This document shows positions 4,143 to 24,924 of a stretch of DNA of 57,053 bases, piece after piece. This DNA is from Bacillota bacterium. GTDB taxonomy: Bacteria; Bacillota; Clostridia; Christensenellales; UBA1242. The number at the start of each line of letters is the position of its first letter. Position 1 is the first letter of the stretch. Both the position numbers and the translations under genes were made by a program. The notes beneath the pieces were generated by a model, which saw only the letters and a list, made by a program, of their open reading frames with translations, had not been told where the DNA came from and did no database searches. The stretch spans positions 1 to 57,053 of the forward strand of contig WRBO01000011.1 of assembly GCA_009784555.1 (NCBI GenBank). Reading direction: 5' to 3'.

Positions 4143-4219
4143 TGGTGGGTGTTCACGGACTTGAACCGCGGACCGACCGGTTATGAGCCGGTTGCTCTAA
4201 CCAACTGAGCTAAACACCC
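4143..4219 (-). tRNA. tRNA with CAT anticodon (Met elongator or Ile2)
   Basis: On the minus strand GGGTGTT and AACACCC form a perfect seven-pair acceptor stem, followed by an encoded ACCA end (4143-4146). The D arm reads GCTCAGTTGGTTAGAGC. The anticodon stem is ACCGG/CCGGT with loop CTCATAA, giving anticodon CAT. The T arm carries TTCAAGT. CAT is used by elongator Met tRNA and by Ile2 tRNA, whose C34 is modified by TilS; the sequence alone does not settle which. It does not look like an initiator because its acceptor stem is fully paired. Confidence 0.93.
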
Positions 4220-4276
4220 GTAATAGTGGTTACTTGACCATTTTACATCGTTTTATTATTCCCGTCAATTATCTTA

Positions 4277-4305
4277 TTGACAATGGGATTTTGCGGGCAT
4301 ATAAT
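4277..4305 (+). promoter_or_regulatory. Perfect-consensus sigma-A promoter
   Basis: TTGACA (4277-4282), exactly 17 bases, TATAAT (4300-4305). The predicted start is at 4312, which is the A of an ATG. It is the strongest promoter in the window by consensus and drives the leader of the aspartate operon. Confidence 0.85.
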
Positions 4306-4311
4306 ATCACC

Positions 4312-4419
4312 ATGGACGCAAGCCATATCACAAAAACTTTCGTGGCAACAAATAATAACAATACATTCGGGTTACCGAGTGTATGTTTTCGTGTGGTGGC
4401 AAATAATAATCGCAATTAG
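4312..4419 (+). CDS. Asn-rich leader peptide (35 residues), leaderless
   Basis: The ATG coincides with the predicted transcription start, so no ribosome-binding site is needed. Of the 35 residues eight are Asn: a run of four (codons at 4351-4362), a run of three (4402-4410), and the last residue before TAG. A GTGGCA...AATAATAA direct repeat underlies both runs. The ORF spans the hairpin at 4361-4386 and stops 32 bases before the terminator stem. Downstream are an aspartate-type aminotransferase and PEP carboxylase, which together make aspartate, the precursor of asparagine. Asn codon runs there are what a ribosome-mediated attenuator sensing charged Asn-tRNA would need. That function is inferred; A/T-rich DNA could also produce AAT codons by chance. 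Confidence 0.55.
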   Translation: MDASHITKTFVATNNNNTFGLPSVCFRVVANNNRN

Positions 4420-4497
4420 TTAAATAACACTATCAACGAATAACTTACCTAAACTCTGTAACCCAACTTCACAAAGAACGGGCTACAGAGTTTTTTA
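4361..4497 (+). promoter_or_regulatory. Candidate transcription attenuator of the aspartate operon
   Basis: Three elements compete. Hairpin 1 pairs ATACATTCGG (4361-4370) with CCGAGTGTAT (4375-4384 and adjoining bases). The terminator pairs CTCTGTAACCC (4454-4464) with GGGCTACAGAG (4480-4490). The upstream GGGTTACCGAG (4369-4379) is a near repeat of that terminator 3' arm and can pair with the same CTCTGTAACCC in 10 of 11 positions. So one strand can form either the terminator or an antiterminator, and the antiterminator would also break hairpin 1. This is the logic of a classical attenuator or riboswitch expression platform. Whether the signal is the translating ribosome or a ligand is not known. 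Confidence 0.6.
4452..4496 (+). terminator. Intrinsic terminator before the aminotransferase gene
   Basis: AACTCTGTA (4452-4460) pairs perfectly with TACAGAGTT (4484-4492), extended inward by CCC/GGG, and runs into TTTTTT. It lies between the strong promoter at 4277-4305 and the gene at 4567, so it must be read through for that promoter to express the operon. Confidence 0.8.
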
Positions 4498-4566
4498 AGG
4501 CGGTAAGGACAATTTCATAGGCGGGCTTGCGCACGTGCACATAAAATAATCAAGGAGAAATTCATC

Positions 4567-5712
4567 ATGTTTATATCAAAAAGGGTAAAGGACGTCGCAC
4601 ACAGTATTCCATTTTTCATAAGTGAACAGGCGGCAAAGCTGCGGGCAGAGGGGCGGGACATCTCGCTCTTTGGTGCGGGCGAAACGGGGTTTGAAACACC
4701 CGAATATGTAAAGACGGCGGCAAAGGTGGCAATAGATGCGGGCCACACAAAATACACCGCGATTGCGGGGATATTACCGTTGCGCGAAGCCATTTGTAAA
4801 AAACTGCGCGAAGACAACGGTTTGGAATACACCCCCGACCAAATTGTTGTGTCAAACGGTGCAAAACAAAGTCTTTGGAACATCCTCTACAGTGTCGTCA
4901 ACGAAGGGGACGAAGTCATCGTGATAAAGCCATATTGGCTGACCTATGCCGAGCTAGTTCGCTTGGCTGGCGGGGTTGTGGTAGAGGTTTCGGACACCAA
5001 AGAAATAAAGGCGGCTATAACCGAAAAAACCCGCGTAATCATGTTATGTACCCCAAACAACCCGGATGGAAAGGTAATTCACGAACGGGAACTGCGCGCC
5101 CTGGCAAAAGATTTGGTGGGGTCGGGAATTTGGCTCATCAGTGACGAGATGTACGAAAAACTTATCTATGGCAAAACAAAACACTTTTCAATTGCCCGGG
5201 TTTACGACAAAACAATCACGGTGGGCGGCGTGTCAAAATCAATCGCGATGACCGGGTGGCGTGTTGGATGGACGGCGTGTTGCGCCGAATTTGCGGCAAC
5301 CATGACACGGTTCCAAAGCCACACAACCTGCAGCATCTGTACAATCTCGCAATACGCCGCGCTAGAGGCTCTGTCCAACAAAACCGAGCATGACAAATTC
5401 GTGTCAATGGTTCGCCAATCATTCCAAGAACGCAGGGATTACGTTGTCAAACGATTGCACGGAATAGCTGGGGTCAAATTCCAAGAACCCGAGGGCGCGT
5501 TTTATGCCCTGGTGGATGTAAGTAAATTTGGCGAAGCGTTCGAGATAACGCAACAGTTATTGCAAGAGGCCGATGTCGCCGCCGTTCCGTGCGAAACATT
5601 CGGCGCACCTGGGCACATTCGTTTAAGTTACGCGCAACCAATGGAGGCACTTGAAAAGGGTCTGGACAGAATCGAAGGGTTTTTTGCCCGCAAAATAAAA
5701 GAGGTGAAGTAA
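4567..5712 (+). CDS. PLP-dependent aspartate-type aminotransferase (class I/II)
   Basis: This 381-residue fold-type I aminotransferase has the complete motif set: CTPNNPDGKV around Asn165, ISDEMYE with Asp193, and GGVSKSIAMTGWRVGW, where Lys224 is the PLP lysine and Arg232 contacts the phosphate. HIRLSYA near the C-terminus holds the substrate-carboxylate arginine. In the family this fits aspartate aminotransferase, transferring the amino group from glutamate to oxaloacetate. ATG 4567 follows AAGGAG. The stop overlaps the start of ppc (TAATG), so the two are one operon: PEP carboxylase makes oxaloacetate and this enzyme converts it to aspartate. An aromatic or other aminotransferase is possible from sequence alone; the neighbour favours aspartate. 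Confidence 0.85.
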   Translation: MFISKRVKDVAHSIPFFISEQAAKLRAEGRDISLFGAGETGFETPEYVKTAAKVAIDAGHTKYTAIAGILPLREAICKKLREDNGLEYTPDQIVVSNGAKQSLWNILYSVVNEGDEVIVIKPYWLTYAELVRLAGGVVVEVSDTKEIKAAITEKTRVIMLCTPNNPDGKVIHERELRALAKDLVGSGIWLISDEMYEKLIYGKTKHFSIARVYDKTITVGGVSKSIAMTGWRVGWTACCAEFAATMTRFQSHTTCSICTISQYAALEALSNKTEHDKFVSMVRQSFQERRDYVVKRLHGIAGVKFQEPEGAFYALVDVSKFGEAFEITQQLLQEADVAAVPCETFGAPGHIRLSYAQPMEALEKGLDRIEGFFARKIKEVK

Positions 5713-8399
5713 TGTTATATTTACTAGACAGTCAAAGAGACGAAAAAGACATAAAGACAGCGACAGAGGCATTATATGCCGATGTGGCCCTATTACGTCG
5801 CATGTTGGGCGAAACCATCCGCGAGGTAGAGGGCGAGAAAACATATGAACTGGTCGAGGGATTGCATAAACTGTTCACAAAGTTTTACCACGACAAAGAC
5901 CACGTCGCGATGGAGAAGATTCTGTACGCATTGTCGGATGCGGAAATGACAACGGTGACCAGTGCCGCTGTATATTTTTCAATTCTGGCCAACGTTGCCG
6001 AGGACCATCACCACCTGGGACAATTCCGCCAAAAACAGGTTGCGGGCGAAGCAGGGGGCGAGGGTAGCCTAGAGGGCAGCATCGCATTCGCAAAGAGCCA
6101 CGGTTTCACCGACGAACGCCTGCGTGAATTTTTTGCGTCCGCGTACATCGCACCCGTATTAACGGCTCACCCGACCGAGGTCCAACGGCGCAGCATCCGC
6201 GGGGTTCTGGGTGCGATTTCCACGTTGCTTGAAAAACGTGACCGATTTGCCGAAACCCCCGAAGAACATGCTGAGGTTGAATTGGAACTGCGCACCCAAA
6301 TCCAAACATTATGGAAAACACGTGTTTTGCGCGTGTCGAAACTATCGGTACTGGACGAGGTCGAGAGCGCACTATACTTCTTTGAAAAAACATTCTTTGA
6401 TGCGGTTCCAAAACTGTACAAAGCCGTAGAAGGGGTAATAGGAGAGCAAGAAGGCGAGGCCCCGGCATTCTTACAAATCGCCAGTTGGATTGGCGGCGAC
6501 CGTGACGGCAACCCGTTTGTGGATGCAACGGTGCTGGAGGAAACCTTGGCTCGTCAAGCGGCAAAGGCATTGAAATTTTACCAGACCGAGGTAGGTGCCC
6601 TGTACCACGAACTGTCCGTTTCAACTCCGTTGGATGCCGTTACCCCCGCTTTACGTAAATTGGTAAAGGTTTCACCAGACACCAGTGCCCGTCACGCCGA
6701 CGAACCGTATCGCCTGGCAATGGCAACCGTCATGGAAAGATTGACCGAGGGGTCATACGCAACGGTATCGGATTTCATCGCCGACCTTGTAACAATTCAA
6801 CAATCATTGCGGCACCAGGGATTCAAATTGCTGGCGGCGGGACGATTGGGAAAATTGCTTTGCGCTGTGCGTGTATTTGGTTGGACTTTGGCACCGCTTG
6901 ATTTACGGCAAAACAGTGCCGTACACGAACGGACGGTCGCCGAAATCCTCGAGGCCGCAACCCCAGGCACAATATACTTGGAGCAATGCGAGGGCGGGCG
7001 GGTCAAAATATTGCTACGCGAACTTTGCACCCCGCGGCCCCTGATATCACGCCACGCAAAGTACAGCGAAGAAACGATAAAAGAATTGGCAATCTTTGAT
7101 GCGGCACGTGCGGCACAACTGCGCTATGGTGTCGGCTGTATCAAAACGGCCATTATCTCCATGACACATGGATTATCGGACATTTTGGAACTGGCGGTTC
7201 TTCTAAAGGAATCTGGCTTGGACGTACATATTGTTCCGTTGTTTGAAACGATAAGCGACCTGCGTGCGGCACCGCAAATTATGGAGGCCCTGTTATCATT
7301 CCCGTTCTATCGAGCGCGATTGTCAAAACGCGGCGACGTGCAAGAGGTCATGGTTGGATATTCGGACAGCAACAAAGACGGCGGATATGTCACATCACGA
7401 TGGGAATTATACAGGGCCGAAGCCGCGCTGTCCGAGGTCTTTGCGGGTCACGGGGTTAAATTACGTATCTTCCATGGATGCGGCGGTTCTGTTGGTCGCG
7501 GTGGCGGCCCCAGCTATCGCGCAATCATGGCCCAACCAAAAGGCGTGGTCCAAGGGCAACTGCGCATAACTGAACAGGGCGAGGTCGTCGCGGCAAAATA
7601 CTCATCGCCAGAGGTTGGGCGGCGGCATCTAGAGGTTCTCCTCTCCGCCACATTATCCGCAACCGCACATCCTGCGCATTCTGAACCCGTTGACCCCAAA
7701 CACCTTGAAACCTTTGCCGAGCTATCTGATTATGCCTTTGCTGCCTATCGCGGATTGGTATACGAAACGCCACGGTTCGAGGAATATTTTTGGCAATCAA
7801 CCGTCATATCCGAAATTGCAACATTAAACATCGGTTCACGTCCCGCATCACGGGCACGGGGACAACGGATAGAAGACCTGCGTGCAATCCCATGGGGCTT
7901 TTCGTGGGCGCAATGTCGGGTGATGTTGCCGGGGTGGTATGGCTTTGGCTCTGCGGTTGATGCATATATTGCAAAACACGGCAAACGGGGTCTTGCCACA
8001 TTGCAATCCATGTTTCGCGAATGGGGTGTCTTTACAACCCTTTTGTCCAACATGGAAATGGTACTGGCCAAGGCCAGTATGGAAATCGCCGCGGCATACG
8101 CGGGACTGGTAGAGGACGTAAAATTACGCGAATCAATCTTTCCACGCATCGTTGCGGAATACGAACGCTCGGTCGCACATGTTCTGGCGATAACGGGGCA
8201 ACGGGAGCTATTGGCCCGTTCGCCATCGTTACGGCGTGTTATACTTGACCGCCTACCGTCATTGGACCCGCTAAACCATGTCCAGGTCGAAATGCTGCGC
8301 CGATATCGTGCTGGGGCGGATGGCGCATGCGACCATATCCGTGCGGGGGTTCATGTTTCGATTAACGCAATCGCATCAATGCTACGGAACAGCGGTTAA
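5712..8399 (+). CDS. ppc: Phosphoenolpyruvate carboxylase
   Basis: This 895-residue full-length bacterial-type PEP carboxylase makes oxaloacetate from PEP and bicarbonate. TAHPTEVQRR carries the catalytic His153. Further motifs are VGYSDSNKDGGYVTSRW, FHGCGGSVGRGGGP and the Gln/Arg-rich QGQLRITEQGEVVAAKY. The C-terminus VSINAIASMLRNSG matches the usual end of the family, with the terminal Gly expected in the active site. It shares one base with the aminotransferase stop, so translation is coupled. Together they feed carbon from glycolysis to aspartate and thus to Asn, Thr, Lys/DAP and pyrimidines. Expression probably depends on the attenuator at 4361-4497. Confidence 0.96.
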   Translation: MLYLLDSQRDEKDIKTATEALYADVALLRRMLGETIREVEGEKTYELVEGLHKLFTKFYHDKDHVAMEKILYALSDAEMTTVTSAAVYFSILANVAEDHHHLGQFRQKQVAGEAGGEGSLEGSIAFAKSHGFTDERLREFFASAYIAPVLTAHPTEVQRRSIRGVLGAISTLLEKRDRFAETPEEHAEVELELRTQIQTLWKTRVLRVSKLSVLDEVESALYFFEKTFFDAVPKLYKAVEGVIGEQEGEAPAFLQIASWIGGDRDGNPFVDATVLEETLARQAAKALKFYQTEVGALYHELSVSTPLDAVTPALRKLVKVSPDTSARHADEPYRLAMATVMERLTEGSYATVSDFIADLVTIQQSLRHQGFKLLAAGRLGKLLCAVRVFGWTLAPLDLRQNSAVHERTVAEILEAATPGTIYLEQCEGGRVKILLRELCTPRPLISRHAKYSEETIKELAIFDAARAAQLRYGVGCIKTAIISMTHGLSDILELAVLLKESGLDVHIVPLFETISDLRAAPQIMEALLSFPFYRARLSKRGDVQEVMVGYSDSNKDGGYVTSRWELYRAEAALSEVFAGHGVKLRIFHGCGGSVGRGGGPSYRAIMAQPKGVVQGQLRITEQGEVVAAKYSSPEVGRRHLEVLLSATLSATAHPAHSEPVDPKHLETFAELSDYAFAAYRGLVYETPRFEEYFWQSTVISEIATLNIGSRPASRARGQRIEDLRAIPWGFSWAQCRVMLPGWYGFGSAVDAYIAKHGKRGLATLQSMFREWGVFTTLLSNMEMVLAKASMEIAAAYAGLVEDVKLRESIFPRIVAEYERSVAHVLAITGQRELLARSPSLRRVILDRLPSLDPLNHVQVEMLRRYRAGADGACDHIRAGVHVSINAIASMLRNSG

Positions 8400-8416: not shown

Positions 8417-9298
8417 ATGTATTTTTTAATTATTCCTATGGTCTTGGCCTTTGCTGTCGAGAATATTCTTTGGAAACGTAACCGGCTGAAACCGCTGACC
8501 TCTTTAATCGGAAACGCGATTTGGCGATTTGTGTTCGTCATGTCGGTGTTCCTTGTCTTCCTTGCAATTATGGGTGATGGGGTCTTTGACGGCTTGACAT
8601 GGGGTGTTGTTGGTTTAACTTTCACATTACATATATTCGGCGTATCGGCCGTGATGTTATGGGTAAAGACCATGCAAAACCTGTGTGTATCCATTGCCGA
8701 ACCGCTATCGCTATTCCGCATCATTCCATTGACACTCTTGTCTTGGGTGATATTCGGCGGGCGGCTGACGGTGTGGGAGATTTTGCTTGTAACTCTGATA
8801 TTCCTGCTCTGTGGGTCGTTGGGATTTTTCCAGGGACGAACCGAGGCCGACAAAGGCTGCTTCAAAAAAGGGGTGTGCTATATCGCCCTGTGGACATGCT
8901 GTGTCGTGTCAATGGATTTGATAATAAACCACATGTCATATACGGGCGTACACCCAATAACGTTTAGTGCCCTTCGTGCCATCACATTCCTGATGGTGGC
9001 CTCGACCGTGTTCCTGATATTTAAACGGGGCGGGCGGATTACCGCAATCAAAACCGTATTGCGTAACAAAATAATGATTGCAATTGGGGCCATATTCGCG
9101 GTACATAGTATCCTCTTTATCACGTTACTCCTGCACATCGACAACGTAGGCATACTGACGGCTATCGGTGTTGCCTCGGTGCCGCTGGTCGTTCTGTGGG
9201 GTGTTGTATTCATGCGTGACCGATTGCGGTGGTACTCGTTTGTCTTTATTGCGATGATTGTTGCGTGCGTTGCCGCATTAACAATCATAAGTACATAA
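8417..9298 (+). CDS. DMT/EamA-type membrane transporter
   Basis: This 293-residue protein has about ten hydrophobic helices in two repeats of five, with a charged loop (GRTEADKGCFKKG) between the halves, the plan of drug/metabolite transporters of the EamA type. It starts 17 bases after ppc with an AGGGGAG element upstream, so it is probably in the same operon. The substrate cannot be read from the sequence. Its place behind an aspartate-forming pair would suit amino-acid export or import, but that is inference. A glucose/ribose-type DMT porter is an alternative. Confidence 0.7.
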   Translation: MYFLIIPMVLAFAVENILWKRNRLKPLTSLIGNAIWRFVFVMSVFLVFLAIMGDGVFDGLTWGVVGLTFTLHIFGVSAVMLWVKTMQNLCVSIAEPLSLFRIIPLTLLSWVIFGGRLTVWEILLVTLIFLLCGSLGFFQGRTEADKGCFKKGVCYIALWTCCVVSMDLIINHMSYTGVHPITFSALRAITFLMVASTVFLIFKRGGRITAIKTVLRNKIMIAIGAIFAVHSILFITLLLHIDNVGILTAIGVASVPLVVLWGVVFMRDRLRWYSFVFIAMIVACVAALTIIST

Positions 9299-9312: not shown

Positions 9313-9318
9313 ATGGAT

Positions 9319-10098
9319 ATGAAGAAAATTGGATTGGCATTGGGTGCGGGTGGTGCGCGCGGGTTTTGTCACATAGGCGTGATAGAGGTATTGTTGGAAA
9401 ACAACATACCGATTGATGTCGTGACGGGTTGCTCTATGGGTGCGGTTGTCGGCGGCGGATTTGTTGCTGGTGTGTCATGTGAAACCATGCGTGCAATCGC
9501 CAATCAAACAACTAACCGCCGTGTGTTTGATTTTGATATATTCAACATCAAATCAAAGGGCGGGGTTGCCCGCGGTGACCGTGCAATGAAAATCTATAAA
9601 CATTACATAGGCGACAAACTAATCGAGGAATGTGAAATACCGTTCATGTCCATTGCCACCGATTTGCGAAACCGTGAACTATATGAATTCCGCTCGGGAT
9701 ATCTGTGGCGGGCAATACGGGCCAGCATGGCTATCCCTGGGGTTTTCCATCCTGTCGAACACGAAGACCGACTTCTTGTCGATGGCGGTGTATTGAAACG
9801 TATACCAATTCAACAGGCACGCGACCTGGGTGCGGATATCGTGATTGCCGTGGATGCCCTCGGCCCGCCAAAAGAAATGGTTGCGATGTCGGCGCTAAAG
9901 GTCATTGACATGGCCTATCAAATAATTGATTGGAAAACGGCGCAATACGAGGCACGGGATGCCGACATCATGATTGTCCCTGATTTGGGAAACAAATCAT
10001 CATTCAAATTCAAAGACAATGACGCGGCAATAATGGCGGGGCGCGAGGCCGCTGAAAAAATGCTGCCCCAAATCCTTGCGGCTCTGGGACGGAACTGA
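9319..10098 (+). CDS. Patatin-like phospholipase / RssA-type serine hydrolase
   Basis: This 259-residue patatin-domain protein has the glycine-rich oxyanion loop GAGGARGFCHIGV, the nucleophile elbow GCSMGA (Ser39) and the second dyad residue in VDGGVLKRIP (Asp155). These form the Ser-Asp dyad of patatin-like acyl hydrolases; length and order match the bacterial RssA/YlbK group. No signal peptide is present, so it is cytoplasmic, presumably acting at the membrane. I chose ATG 9319: the extended -10 TGATATTAT ends at 9312 and predicts transcription from that ATG. An in-frame ATG at 9313 is too close to the -10. There is no ribosome-binding site. The substrate is unknown. Confidence 0.85.
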   Translation: MKKIGLALGAGGARGFCHIGVIEVLLENNIPIDVVTGCSMGAVVGGGFVAGVSCETMRAIANQTTNRRVFDFDIFNIKSKGGVARGDRAMKIYKHYIGDKLIEECEIPFMSIATDLRNRELYEFRSGYLWRAIRASMAIPGVFHPVEHEDRLLVDGGVLKRIPIQQARDLGADIVIAVDALGPPKEMVAMSALKVIDMAYQIIDWKTAQYEARDADIMIVPDLGNKSSFKFKDNDAAIMAGREAAEKMLPQILAALGRN

Positions 10099-10116: not shown

Positions 10117-10145
10117 TTGGGAATTTGTCGAAATATGCCTATACT
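10117..10145 (+). promoter_or_regulatory. Promoter of the giant surface-protein gene
   Basis: TTGGGA (10117-10122), 17 bases, TATACT (10140-10145). The predicted transcript starts near 10152, inside CAAGG-GAAA-CCTTG (10151-10164), a small hairpin with a GNRA-type GAAA loop at the very 5' end of the mRNA. Such hairpins often stabilise transcripts. Confidence 0.55.
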
Positions 10146-10175
10146 ATTTACAAGGGAAACCTTGGGGGCATACGA

Positions 10176-13100
10176 ATGATAAAAAGAGCACTCATCCTTG
10201 TTGTCGCATTTGCTTTTGTCATGGCCTTGGCTATTGTGCCTGGGGCTTTTAATCGTGTGTCCACGGCATCTGGAATGCCGACAACATCGTGGGCGGATAA
10301 TCGCGTGGACGTTCCATTGGCCGAGGACGGCGTCATCGTCATCCGCACCGCCGCCGAATTTGCGGGCTTTGCCCATTCGGTTAATACGGTAACATTACAT
10401 CGAACCGCTAACGTTCGCTTGGGCGCGGACATAAATTTGTCTGCCCATCTGTGGCGGCCTATCGGTGACGGATATATCTTTGGCGGAACATTCAACGGAA
10501 ACGGCCACACAATCACGGGTTTGAATATATCGGGCACTTCGTCTGCCATTGGGTTGTTTGGGACTATCGGCGATGGTGCGGTCATCGGGGACTTGGTAAT
10601 CGAAAACTCTACCGTCGGCATCGAATCTGGGCCAACGGGATTATCGGCGGGTATTGTTGTTGGTTCGGTTAACCGCGGCAACGCAACGGTGGAAGATATC
10701 ACAATTCGTAATTCGGCCTTGGTCGGCTCGACCCAAGAAATCAGTCAAAGTCTGGGCGGAATAATAGGAGCAGTTTCCTTCAGCGGCACTAACGTCACTA
10801 TGCGCGATATAACGATGGACAATGTTGAAGTTATCAGAGAGCGCGAACCATTAGCCATCGGTGGTGGTTCCATCATGATGGGCGGTACCGTGGGCTTTTT
10901 AGGCAGTAACGCAACCCTAACAATCGAAAACACAGACATAACAAGCGGGGCATTGACCAGTATCGGAAACAACTCGGTAATGATTGGCGGAATGGTCGCG
11001 CAATCATCTGGGTCGGGCTCGGACTTGGTAATACGGAACAGTATCTTCGAGGGAACAATCGATGCACGCGATGGGAACGGTGTCTTGGCTGGCGGTATGG
11101 TTGGATTTTCTTCGGGTGCGGAAATGCGAATAGAGAACAGTCGCACCAACGGCACAATGAACACCTTTGGCGGTAACGGTGAATCCATTATAGGTGGTAT
11201 TGCTGGGGCCATGTCTGGGTCAAATGGATTTGTAATGGAATCCGTATCTAACATGACAATTAACATAAACGAATCAACCACACCAAACGGCGAACGGTTT
11301 ATTGTCGGTGGGAATGTCGGCCGTGTTCAATCTGGGGCAAACCTTGTCATGAATACGGGACATGATGCCTCTGGTCGTCGCCTGGCCTTTGGCGGCTCCA
11401 TTAATGCAACATCATCACCCGCAACGGCAACAAACAGCTACGCTGGCGGTCTGGTGGGCGAGGTTCTGACATCCGCGGTCACAATAATGAACGCGGGGGT
11501 TAATGCCGATATATATACACGGGCAACGAACCTAACACATGTCGGCGGAATTATCGGAGATGTTTGGAATTCAAATGTAACCCTCACCGACATTACGGTC
11601 GTACCTGGGGTGGACGCCCAAACAACTGGCCACCTCCGTGTTGGCGGTGCGGTTGGTAATGCCGTCCTGACGGTTTCAAATATGATTGGCATCGACGGTG
11701 TACATATACAACCGGGAACAATGCGCGCTTGGTCTACGGGTGGAACGGGCATTAACCAAATTTTGGGCGCGTTGGTAGGGCACCAGGTCGGGGGCCTAAT
11801 AACCATCGCTGGCACAACTGTTACTTCGTCTTTCCTTATGAACAACGCGCCCAGCATCATCCGCGTCGGTTTCTCGGTCGGCTCGGTCCAAGGCGGTGGC
11901 ATAACATCAATCGGCGTGGTGGGAACATTTACGGGTAACCGAACCTTGGGAGTGGTTAATTCCGACAACACACCGCCCGAGGCAACGAACATGGTCGGCC
12001 ACCGTGATACAGGGACCCAGGTCTTTATTCTCCCATTCGTTCCGCGCACATTGCGTGCGCCAACTAACTTGGCGGTCACACCATTGGGGCTTCTGACTTG
12101 GTGGGCATCGCCCCAGGCCCATGAATACCAAATCCGTGTAAACGGGACAGAGGTCGGACGTATATCGGGGGCGGTGCGGGAATTTAACTTGGCCACAATC
12201 GAAAACCCTCCGCCATATGGCGACCACTCGGTCACCGTAATTGCAATGGGGCCCGAGGGTGCGGGAACCAACTCGCCCGAGAGTACGGCCGCAACATGGA
12301 CGCGACTGCCGCCGCCATTGGCAACACCTGGGATACCAACCATTTCGGTCAATATGCTGACATGGCCGCCTGTCTTTGGTGCCGCGGGCTTTCGTATATA
12401 TATAAGCCACAACCAAGGCGAGTTCACATTGCGCGGACATTCAATATCCGCGGCAATCCCACTATCCGAATTGAACCCTGGGCTGGCGGTCGGCGAGAAC
12501 CGTATTCGCATCGTGGCAAACGGTGTCGCGGGCGTATCGTCTGACTCTGCCCCTGGCCCGCATTTAACACACATAATTGACCCACAACCATTCGCAACCC
12601 CCGTCATAACAATTGATGGTGGCACAATATCCTGGCAAGACATCCCGAACACGGGCGGGTTCCGTGTCTATGTCGACCGCGGGGCATCGGAGTGGGAGGC
12701 CCTGCACACCGTCTCTGCCGAACACCGCTCGTTCAATCTTAACGACCTAAACCCGCGCCTGCCGATTGGATACCATACGATTTCCGTTATCGCCGCGGGC
12801 ATTGATGGCGGAAACCTGGATTCCCAGAGAAGCAACACCGTCGAATTCCACTCGGTCGCCGTTGACTTGGCCGCGCCAACTGGATTGGTTGTTAATGGTA
12901 ATAACTTGTCATGGTCGCATGTACCGAATGCGGCGGGTTATCACATCTACACACACCAAAACGGCATAGACCTGCGACGTACACAAAATCCAATCCAAGG
13001 AACTGGAACGGACACGCGCACCTTTAACTTGGCAACCCTCGGCCTCGCGCCTGGCGTCTATACCATCCGTATCCGTGCAATGGGCGGGGGCAGCATCGAA

Positions 13101-14777
13101 TGGAACGACTCGGCCTTAAGTCACATTGACGGCCCATCATTCACCGTGACGGGGCCTCTCGCGGCGCCGGTTGGCTTGACAATAACGGGGGGAGGCATCC
13201 TTTCCTGGACACACGTACTCGGCGCAACTGGATACCATATCTATGTTCGCATTGGCGGGGTGGACATCCGCCAAACAACCGCGCCCGTAACGGGGGGGGG
13301 CAGTCCAACTCGCACCTTCAACATGTCCGAATTTACCATCCCCGTCGGCACGTTCCATGTCAGGGTTCTTGCCACCAGTACCGCTCACTATCTCACCGAC
13401 TCTCCATTAAGCGACCTGAACACCGCCCCCTTGTTGGTCATTACACCCGCAACGCCTGACCCTGTACCTCTCTTGGCTCCCGCCAACGTTGTGCGTGTTG
13501 ACAACTTCTTGCGTTGGACACATGTCGTCAATGCCGATGCGTATCACATTTACACGCGCCAGGGCAATATCGACACCCGTCGCACCATCGAACCAATTAC
13601 TGGCGGAACCTCACCAACACGCGAATTTAACCTCTGGTATCTGGGCCTGGAACCTGGGTTCTATATCCTGCGGGTCAGAGCCGTCAGCAACTCTCCCCTC
13701 TGGCTCCCGTCACCATTAACTAACTTAAACTTTGCACCCAGCTGGACGGTCGACGAAACCACAATGCCGCCCGACCCAACACCACTACCAACACCAACAG
13801 GAGTAGCAATCAGTGGCAGTATCCTCAGCTGGACTCACGTACCCACCGCAACTGGATACTTCATCTACACGCGCCAAGGCCTTGTTGACTTACGCCGTAC
13901 CCCTAATCCGATTGCGTTAACGGGCGGCACTACACGCTTCTTTGACCTGACAACATTGGATTTACCAATCGGAACACATAACGTACGCGTGCGCGCAACA
14001 ACCACTTCCATTCTATGGTTGGACTCGGCATTAAGCATCGACGGCATTCAATTCCATGTACAAGGAATTGTGGAACCGCAACCAATCCCCGCACCAACTG
14101 GATTGGTGCTAAACCAAAACACGGGGATAATGTCATGGAACCCTGTCACGGGCGCCACGGGGTATCGGGTCTACGCAAATACGGGGAACGAGGGCTTTCG
14201 TGAAATCCATCGCATGTCTGGAACATGGATGACATCTATGAACCTGAATAATATTTCTACGCCATTGGGTGACGGTATACACATAATCCGTGTTGTGGCG
14301 GTCGGACAACCGGGGATAAGTCTGGACTCGGCCCCCAGCAACACCGTAACATTCACAATCGGTGTGGGTGTAACCCCTCTGCCTCTGTCTGCGCCGACTA
14401 ATGTCACGGTTAACCAGGGTACTGGCCTCCTATCATGGTCGTCGGTACACGGCGCAACTCACTACCGAATTTATGTGGGCGGGGTATACCGCCAAACAAT
14501 CCCCAGCACCTATACATCATTCAACATAAACAACTTCAACACATCACTGGAACCTGGCACCCACAACATCACAATCGTTGCGGGCGGGGCAACAGGGGTC
14601 AGTTTGGATTCACCGCACAGTCCATCTGTCATCTTCACCGTTGCGGGCGCGCCTCCTGCTGGCGGCGGCTCTAACGCGGCGATAGTCATTTCTGTCATCA
14701 TCGGGATACTGGCCGCTGGCGGTGTCGCGGCATTCATATTTCTGAAACAACGCAAACGTTCAAACAACCAAGACTAA
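10176..14777 (+). CDS. Giant secreted, membrane-anchored GLUG/Fn3-like surface protein
   Basis: This protein of about 1533 residues starts MIKRALILVVAFAFVMALAI, a signal peptide, then GRP-type segments such as ADINLSAHLWRPIGDG, FNGNGHTITGLNIS and GGIIGAVSF. These are GLUG-like beta repeats that probably form a beta-helix over the first 600 residues. Then come nine repeats of about 90-100 residues, each beginning like LAAPTGLVVNGNNLSWSHV and containing GYHIYTRQG and an arginine-rich VRVRA strand, which look like Fn3-type beta sandwiches (about 12040-14640). After PPAGGGS a single helix (AIVISVIIGILAAGGVAAF) and KQRKRSNNQD anchor it in the membrane. There is no LPXTG motif. An adhesin or carbohydrate-binding role is likely but inferred. 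ATG 10176 was chosen because the signal peptide begins there. Confidence 0.85.
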   Translation: MIKRALILVVAFAFVMALAIVPGAFNRVSTASGMPTTSWADNRVDVPLAEDGVIVIRTAAEFAGFAHSVNTVTLHRTANVRLGADINLSAHLWRPIGDGYIFGGTFNGNGHTITGLNISGTSSAIGLFGTIGDGAVIGDLVIENSTVGIESGPTGLSAGIVVGSVNRGNATVEDITIRNSALVGSTQEISQSLGGIIGAVSFSGTNVTMRDITMDNVEVIREREPLAIGGGSIMMGGTVGFLGSNATLTIENTDITSGALTSIGNNSVMIGGMVAQSSGSGSDLVIRNSIFEGTIDARDGNGVLAGGMVGFSSGAEMRIENSRTNGTMNTFGGNGESIIGGIAGAMSGSNGFVMESVSNMTININESTTPNGERFIVGGNVGRVQSGANLVMNTGHDASGRRLAFGGSINATSSPATATNSYAGGLVGEVLTSAVTIMNAGVNADIYTRATNLTHVGGIIGDVWNSNVTLTDITVVPGVDAQTTGHLRVGGAVGNAVLTVSNMIGIDGVHIQPGTMRAWSTGGTGINQILGALVGHQVGGLITIAGTTVTSSFLMNNAPSIIRVGFSVGSVQGGGITSIGVVGTFTGNRTLGVVNSDNTPPEATNMVGHRDTGTQVFILPFVPRTLRAPTNLAVTPLGLLTWWASPQAHEYQIRVNGTEVGRISGAVREFNLATIENPPPYGDHSVTVIAMGPEGAGTNSPESTAATWTRLPPPLATPGIPTISVNMLTWPPVFGAAGFRIYISHNQGEFTLRGHSISAAIPLSELNPGLAVGENRIRIVANGVAGVSSDSAPGPHLTHIIDPQPFATPVITIDGGTISWQDIPNTGGFRVYVDRGASEWEALHTVSAEHRSFNLNDLNPRLPIGYHTISVIAAGIDGGNLDSQRSNTVEFHSVAVDLAAPTGLVVNGNNLSWSHVPNAAGYHIYTHQNGIDLRRTQNPIQGTGTDTRTFNLATLGLAPGVYTIRIRAMGGGSIEWNDSALSHIDGPSFTVTGPLAAPVGLTITGGGILSWTHVLGATGYHIYVRIGGVDIRQTTAPVTGGGSPTRTFNMSEFTIPVGTFHVRVLATSTAHYLTDSPLSDLNTAPLLVITPATPDPVPLLAPANVVRVDNFLRWTHVVNADAYHIYTRQGNIDTRRTIEPITGGTSPTREFNLWYLGLEPGFYILRVRAVSNSPLWLPSPLTNLNFAPSWTVDETTMPPDPTPLPTPTGVAISGSILSWTHVPTATGYFIYTRQGLVDLRRTPNPIALTGGTTRFFDLTTLDLPIGTHNVRVRATTTSILWLDSALSIDGIQFHVQGIVEPQPIPAPTGLVLNQNTGIMSWNPVTGATGYRVYANTGNEGFREIHRMSGTWMTSMNLNNISTPLGDGIHIIRVVAVGQPGISLDSAPSNTVTFTIGVGVTPLPLSAPTNVTVNQGTGLLSWSSVHGATHYRIYVGGVYRQTIPSTYTSFNINNFNTSLEPGTHNITIVAGGATGVSLDSPHSPSVIFTVAGAPPAGGGSNAAIVISVIIGILAAGGVAAFIFLKQRKRSNNQD
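12040..14640 (+). repeat. Nine tandem Fn3-like coding repeats
   Basis: Nine copies share the pattern [AP]P-x(5-9)-[LI]-[ST]-W-x(3)-[PVA]-x-A-x-x-Y-x-[IV]-Y. The fourth to seventh copies are most alike (YHIYTHQNGIDLRRT, YHIYVRIGGVDIRQT, YHIYTRQGNIDTRRT, YFIYTRQGLVDLRRT), so those were duplicated most recently. Confidence 0.75.
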
Positions 14778-24620: not shown

Positions 24621-24626
24621 TATAAT
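24621..24626 (+). promoter_or_regulatory. -10 element TATAAT of the asp23-like gene
   Basis: A perfect TATAAT ends seven bases before ATG 24634, so transcription starts at the start codon. Two overlapping -35 candidates upstream are weak. Confidence 0.6.
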
Positions 24627-24633
24627 ATAGGGT

Positions 24634-24924
24634 ATGGCAACGCGTACGACCAATCTTTACGGTAAAATTACCGTTACAAACCGTGCGATTCGCGCCGTGG
24701 CAAATGCCGCGTTGCGTGAGTGTTATGGTGTCGCCGGTGGTCGCGTCAGTTTCATAGATGTCGAAGAAAATAAAATCAGAATGGTTATCCGATTGATATT
24801 GAAATACGGCGTTACGCCTGAGGCAATATGCGAATCGGTGCGCAGCCAAATCCGTTATAATGTCGAAAACTTTGCCGGGGCGTCCGTCGTTGAATTAAAC
24901 ACGTTTGTCGTCGGCATTAAATAG
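24634..24924 (+). CDS. Asp23/Gls24 (YloU-like) family protein
   Basis: This 96-residue protein has the short YloU pattern: YGKITVTNRAIRAVANAA, then VEENKIRMVIRLILKYGV and RYNVENFAGASVVELNTFVV. The family forms membrane-associated scaffolds linked to envelope stress. Pairing with the YloV/FakA gene 22 bases downstream is conserved in Bacillota (yloU-yloV). The function in detail is not known. A perfect TATAAT seven bases before the ATG and no ribosome-binding site predict a leaderless mRNA. Confidence 0.85.
   Translation: MATRTTNLYGKITVTNRAIRAVANAALRECYGVAGGRVSFIDVEENKIRMVIRLILKYGVTPEAICESVRSQIRYNVENFAGASVVELNTFVVGIK

Follow-up and report, generated by a model that had tools for sequence, protein, structure and literature searches.

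Leaderless leader peptides are known from several bacterial lineages. The trpL peptide of Sinorhizobium meliloti is one (PMC7298713), and in Streptomyces lividans leuL, trpL, ilvL and metL, the last located before metNIQ, belong to the same type (PMC8079986). For mycobacteria, polycysteine leaderless sORFs were reported (Canestrari et al., 2020, as cited in PMC9094748). In bacilli, His leader peptides occur in place of T-boxes before hisS paralogues (Naville and Gautheret, 2010; PMC2965389). A first-pass annotation of the DNA considered here knew of no described leader peptide of this kind that is itself leaderless. In view of Sinorhizobium, Streptomyces and mycobacteria, leaderless leader peptides as such are not new. 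The same annotation knew of no described Asn leader peptide for a ppc-aminotransferase operon. Here we agree: no Asn leader peptide was found in the open-access literature searched, which is no proof of absence, nor in the papers on leaderless leaders in Actinobacteria, S. meliloti and mycobacteria.

The window, i.e., the whole stretch of 57,053 nucleotides which was analysed, belongs to a genome (G000) with an assembly of 1.12 Mb that is 88% complete. Ahead of an aminotransferase-ppc-EamA operon on the plus strand it carries what we confidently consider a transcription attenuator of the trp/his type, operated by the ribosome and specific for Asn-tRNA(Asn), one of a homologous family. The promoter consists of TTGACA (4277-4282), a spacer of 17 nt and TATAAT (4300-4305), and matches the consensus in 12 of 12 positions, exactly as had been claimed. 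A TTGACA box is present in all 13 leaders examined in detail. Directly upstream of the promoter, on the opposite strand, resides a tRNA-Met (CAT) gene (4143-4219, minus strand). Only six bases separate TATAAT from the ATG at 4312. The significance of this spacing was assessed in about 1.1 Mb of G000, where 955 predicted genes were searched for -10-like hexamers upstream of their start codons. The hexamers peak 5-8 nt ahead of the start codons, with 63 at a gap of 6 against a background of about 10. Thus, leaderless mRNAs are common in G000, and the gap of the Asn leader equals the genome-wide mode, in line with the earlier proposal that the ATG coincides with the predicted start. The transcript would accordingly begin at or next to the leader AUG. 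Elsewhere in the window (24621-24640) a TATAAT is followed after 7 nt by the ATG of a 96-aa ORF, apparently another leaderless gene.

The leader ORF (4312-4419, plus strand; stop TAG at 4417-4419) comprises 35 codons with the predicted translation MDASHITKTFVATNNNNTFGLPSVCFRVVANNNRN. It is devoid of a Shine-Dalgarno sequence; the first structural gene possesses one, AAGGAGAAA, which together with its spacer occupies 4552-4566. The first 25 nt of the leader ORF are identical in G003, a genome of the same genus. The eight Asn codons in runs which had been noted earlier are indeed there, at 4351-4362, 4402-4410 and 4414-4416. At a genomic Asn content of 5.0% the chance of at least eight Asn in 34 residues is 2e-4. 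Four of these codons form a first control block (4351-4362). The second block is AAT AAT AAT CGC AAT (4402-4416). Asn codons recur at that place in five of the six Asn leaders; control codons thus cluster once more some 33 nt downstream of where the core (described below) starts, a position that is kept in the Asn leaders and also in Cys.

The RNA has alternative folds. Segment 3, CTCTGTAACCC (4454-4464), is according to pairing, folding and covariation both the 5' arm of a terminator and the 3' strand of an antiterminator, and as it is common to both the two structures are mutually exclusive. The competing structures of the first-pass annotation were recovered: the pairing of CTCTGTAACCC with GGGCTACAGAG (4480-4490) extends over 10 of 11 positions, as does that with GGGTTACCGAG (4369-4379). 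The intrinsic terminator (4451-4497) has a hairpin at about 4451-4493 and a U run at 4491-4496; region 4440-4500 folds with -19.9 kcal/mol (z -5.1 versus shuffles) and the leader 4313-4500 with -49.6 kcal/mol (z -5.2 versus shuffles). Segment 2, the antiterminator 5' strand GGGTTACCG (4369-4377), is supported by covariation. It lies in a core of 12 nt, TCGGGTTACCGA (4367-4378), and the same 12-mer is found at three places of G000 and also in G002 and G003. Folding further predicts a hairpin 1:2 within the ORF, ATACATTCGG-GTTA-CCGAGTGTAT (4361-4384, 10 bp, GUUA loop), which was absent from the earlier annotation. Segment 2 is located in the loop and 3' arm of this hairpin, which competes with the antiterminator.

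The search for relatives upstream of ppc and aminotransferase genes, as proposed in the first-pass annotation, yielded nothing. Among 99 relatives ppc is present only in G002, in a different context and without an attenuator; there (L085:9951) it apparently has its own promoter, and an aspartate aminotransferase is located about 8 kb upstream. Related aminotransferases in named genomes were too distant for a comparison. Because operon synteny was uninformative, the related leaders were found instead by a DNA search of the family, using the Asn leader region and then the 12-nt core as a lead. This search returned a leader ORF in G003 (76%, E 5.5e-11) and the central hairpin elsewhere in G000 and in G002. 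The core then led to 20 further leaders of the same design, distributed over five genomes of the genus and one of a neighbouring genus (G021); the genomes are incomplete assemblies. The common design consists of a leaderless or near-leaderless short ORF whose codon cluster lies immediately 5' of the core, of a distal strand which pairs with the core, and of a terminator. Core 12-mers from other genera of the family (L103-L106) were rejected; they are inside genes or part of ordinary terminators.

The genus contains six Asn leaders with conserved Asn codons; that of G003 encodes MDASHITKIQVVNVNNNAIGLPRADFCVKINT. A scan of G000 for near-leaderless short ORFs followed by terminators produced about eleven leaders, nine of which share the core, after leader-like ORFs over tRNA genes had been discarded. 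Besides the Asn leader of the window these are His MNCTNWLGFHHHHFTSGTRM, Phe MDCIKRLGFFFGFTTGYPA, Tyr MNGTKRLGFAYHYITSGYRM, Leu/Val/Ile MNCTKKNYGLVLIIVTSGYRL, Met MKQIAFIAKGATVMMMHSGYRM, Lys MNNLATEICLVTKGKGKGKKKLSGYRE, Trp MKLAVKGLFWRWHIDSGYRTVY and Cys MITTFRNNVAISCCTTFGSPCVGFSVGSCACSS; the Trp, Tyr and Leu/Ile/Val assignments are based on few codons each and should be read as provisional. The Met leader ORF of G002 ends in IVMMMHSGYRM. The Arg MKTQVGIKLNARRASKRRT and Pro MKYNVANNPVPPMPTSRCLFLRA leaders have no core, though their folds suggest alternative pairings of their own. One may ask whether all this could be a play of chance, i.e., a spurious Asn-rich ORF ahead of an ordinary attenuator or terminator, as a run of three identical residues occurs in 3.2% of random 8-residue windows. 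Yet runs of at least three within the 8 codons 5' of the core are found in 15 of 22 leaders, a figure whose binomial significance is overstated because the leaders are kin, and the control-codon runs use synonymous codons. The comparison refutes this explanation, the genus having six Asn leaders as well as leaders that match in the same way for further amino acids, and we attach practically no probability to it.

The antiterminator pairing is supported by covariation. The 21 leaders were aligned by MAFFT without structural information, and nine pairs were evaluated between the strands GGGUUACCG (core) and CGGUAACCC (distal). The antiterminator pairing is kept in 88.8% of the cells. Double changes occur in 12 cells at five of the nine pairs, e.g., GGGAUAUCG/CGGUAUCCC in Lys and CGGUUAUCG/CGGUAACCG in Tyr leaders; none of 500 shuffles reaches this, although such counts overstate independence since the leaders are related. 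The covariation score is 0.253 compared to at most 0.081 in controls with a slid partner. The check for covariation that the first-pass annotation had called for is hence answered positively for the antiterminator. In the leaders which were folded, the distal strand and the terminator's 5' arm overlap. Further, the core is read in two frames, as SGYR or as FGLP, and the Asn and Met leaders differ in this respect, so that it is the RNA which is conserved here.

A core conserved across amino-acid types far beyond the needs of pairing might also indicate that ribosome-mediated attenuation is supplemented by a trans-acting protein which binds GGGUUACCG/CGGUAACCC. We regard this as rather unlikely. 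The core tolerates many paired substitutions, and recent duplication, the simplest account of the core similarity across amino acids, would explain the likeness, as with the four tandem leaders on contig C10.

A different picture would emerge if the hairpins were a riboswitch that senses asparagine or aspartate directly, the ORF being incidental, an alternative which the first-pass annotation had left open. Such a riboswitch would agree with the strong competing folds and with the 12-nt core, which is conserved independently of the reading frame. The same core, however, serves Asn, Met, Lys, His, Phe and other operons, which a single ligand pocket could not do; the codon cluster changes with the gene. 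Apart from the terminator and a single helix, the leaders show no conserved fold, and none of the Rfam families fits: the known leader families (Trp, His, Leu, Thr and others) gave only chance matches with E >3 in 4230-4600. A riboswitch is therefore very improbable.

To judge from sequence models, the control codon usually fits the gene behind the leader. Asn leaders precede asnA in G002 (TIGR00669, 301.1 versus a cut-off of 292.8) and an aspartate--tRNA(Asn) ligase in G001 (NF003483, 440.5 versus 353). A Lys leader precedes dapB in G004 (TIGR00036, 144.1 versus 122). The Pro leader, without the shared core, is followed by proB (TIGR01027, 253.7 versus 186) with Aldedh and P5CR domains (proA/proC) downstream. 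Met leaders are located directly ahead of metQNI in two species (G000, G002) and, in another genus (G021), ahead of metA, here below the cut-offs of the models. Other Asn leaders are followed by an EamA transporter (G002), a protein with an aminoacyl-tRNA-editing domain (G001) and an ATP-grasp-like gene (G003). Transporters are frequent. In G002 a Lys leader precedes an APC permease. In G000 Cys is paired with an SDF-family symporter, a family which includes cystine importers, Trp with an APC permease, and Lys and Arg each with an SBP_bac_3 ABC transporter. The His, Phe, Tyr and Leu/Ile/Val leaders of G000 each stand before one of four tandem PF04392 binding lipoproteins. In this region (L112, contig C10, 2175-10000, minus strand) the four PF04392 genes are followed by one permease of the branched-chain type and one ATPase; the four lipoproteins are predicted to be substrate-specific receptors which share one transporter. 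The match of codon and gene is not universal: no function is assigned to the genes behind the His and Tyr/Phe leaders of G002 or to the ATP-grasp-like gene of G003, and the same applies to genes behind the later weak model matches. In G002 (L189, contig C2) a frame change in the assembly disrupts the gene behind a His leader; the ORF after it resembles, by eye, a DapF-type epimerase.

How could the Asn codons control the switch? The first-pass annotation did not work out the fit of a stalled ribosome to the antiterminator. We modelled it at equilibrium with a fixed footprint, the ribosome covering at most 12 nt past the first base of the codon in its A site. The computed geometry works for the first Asn run: with 4351-4362 in the A site the pairing 2:3 has a probability of 1.0, and afterwards, when the strand is covered, of 0. 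When a control codon occupies the A site, the value is 0.99-1.0 in 11 of 11 leaders modelled; for His it is 0.52 at the first codon. In 11 leaders the last control codon starts 8-14 nt ahead of the core. In trp the stop codon is positioned at segment 2, and the same is true for most sister leaders here: in seven it is located exactly 4 nt past segment 2, so that a terminating ribosome covers segment 2, as in trp. The Asn and Cys leader ORFs extend 30-39 nt further; in these, hairpin 1:2 would have to do the job of the terminating ribosome. The second Asn block has no role in the stall model. In the model the full-length Asn leader prefers the terminator at equilibrium, even when a ribosome occupies the Asn codons. 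This means that the choice must be a kinetic one, taken while the 3' arm at about 4480-4493 has yet to be transcribed. Asn RNA that is released and untranslated likewise prefers 2:3 (0.74) as long as the 3' arm has not been made.

We propose the following mechanism. RNA polymerase would start at or next to the leader AUG, and ribosomes would engage the transcript at its leaderless end. Under a shortage of charged Asn-tRNA, a ribosome is expected to stall with an Asn codon of 4351-4362 in its A site, cover the 5' arm of the hairpin 4361-4384 and leave GGGUUACCG (4369-4377) free. This strand could then pair with CUGUAACCC (4456-4464) before the 3' arm of the terminator exists, and transcription would read through into the operon. 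With ample Asn-tRNA the ribosome would advance over segment 2, hairpin 1:2 would re-form behind it, and the terminator (4451-4497) would stop transcription. The stalling and the switch itself we infer; the claim of an Asn-responsive attenuator which the first-pass annotation had made is strongly supported by the six Asn leaders, the matching sister leaders and the covarying antiterminator.

The operon under this putative control starts with a class I/II aminotransferase (4567-5712, plus strand), for which the closest NCBIfam model is aspartate aminotransferase NF041091, below its cut-off. It continues on the same strand with phosphoenolpyruvate carboxylase (5712-8399; 1022 bits, cut-off 815), an EamA-like transporter (8417-9298) and a patatin-like phospholipase (9313-10098), which is probably the last gene. 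A homologue of the EamA-like transporter, 66% identical, is located directly behind another Asn leader in G002. Beyond the operon, 10125-14777 contains a 1550-aa ORF in which the sole domain match is a weak GH85 C-terminal one. Why should Asn codons govern the formation of aspartate? The single enzyme of the AspRS/AsnRS group in G000 is an aspartate--tRNA(Asn) ligase (473 bits versus a cut-off of 353), and GatB is present as well. In the assembly, 88% complete, AsnRS and AsnA were not found, nor was a convincing AsnB, for which there was only a marginal, partial Asn_synthase match. Judging from this gene content, G000 probably makes Asn-tRNA from aspartate, which would be the tie of the operon to aspartate. 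If Asn-tRNA is made from Asp-tRNA(Asn), presumably via GatCAB, empty Asn codons report a shortage of aspartate, the very compound the operon makes.

The distribution of the family is narrow. A covariance model (R1) run against 306 genomes of the family detected all five of the genus and G021, and otherwise chance matches; among 396 genomes of the order it detected G000 and two weak matches. A second model (R2) gave the same picture. Among the weak matches are G503 and G681; those in G040, G023 and G027 look like chance and were set aside. A covariance-model search for T-boxes (RF00230) found none in the window, the five genomes of the genus, G021 and G007. The nine further genera of the family that were tested all carry T-boxes (1-6 each), as do all eight of the order's other families tested (2-20) and the control genomes from Clostridia and Tissierellia (8-29). 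In sister genera, 16 T-box loci were inspected, and they precede genes that look like aminoacyl-tRNA synthetases (by sequence pheS, thrS, tyrS, valS and serS). A replacement of T-boxes by leaders gene for gene was considered and dropped: pheS and valS of G000 have neither. Given an order that uses T-boxes and regulated genes of the T-box type, one might suspect a T-box-like element which reads uncharged tRNA directly. RF00230 matches are missing in the window and the genus, and specificity follows translated codon clusters and not a single specifier codon; such an element is exceedingly improbable here.

The evidence is best accommodated by a homologous family of translated attenuators in which scaffold and core would have been retained and the codon cluster exchanged (Asn, Met, Lys, His, Phe, Tyr, Trp, Cys, Leu/Ile/Val). 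It is likely, if less certain than the Asn attenuator as such, that one ancestral leaderless attenuator was copied and re-specified for at least nine amino-acid classes in a lineage which lost its T-boxes, that the outcome is modular like a T-box but operates via a translated peptide, and that each leader reports on the substrate of the transporter which follows it. Leader-peptide attenuation would then constitute a modular, homologous, genome-wide system exactly where T-boxes are expected. Since the control codons name an amino acid, the family predicts substrates of unassigned transporters, i.e., the four tandem ABC binding lipoproteins, two SBP_bac_3 transporters, an APC permease, an SDF symporter and an EamA protein. 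It may also provide a natural series for studying how attenuator specificity changes, and a clear case of leaderless translation in regulation.

With the trp, his, leu and thr attenuators of Proteobacteria the leaders share an ORF with control codons, mutually exclusive hairpins 1:2, 2:3 and 3:4, and an intrinsic terminator; they differ by the lack of a Shine-Dalgarno sequence, one RNA scaffold for many amino acids, and the Asn version. The leaderless leaders of Actinobacteria and S. meliloti have a leaderless or AUG-first short ORF with control codons before matching genes, including Met-MetNIQ and Cys, and the present leaders are predicted to be alike in this; here the lineage is another one, and a covarying core is common to nine of the eleven leaders of one genome. 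The His leaders of bacilli (PMC2965389) are also leader peptides in a T-box lineage, yet are restricted to hisS paralogues, whereas here transporters and biosynthesis genes for about eleven amino-acid classes are involved in a genus without T-boxes. The T-box (RF00230) itself is similarly modular, with one scaffold, specificity set by codon identity, and sensing of tRNA charging; in the leaders a peptide is translated instead of tRNA being bound directly, and there is no sequence match. The principle is therefore already known, and what is new is the Asn specificity, the shared, re-specifiable scaffold and the scale of the regulon in a T-box-bearing order.
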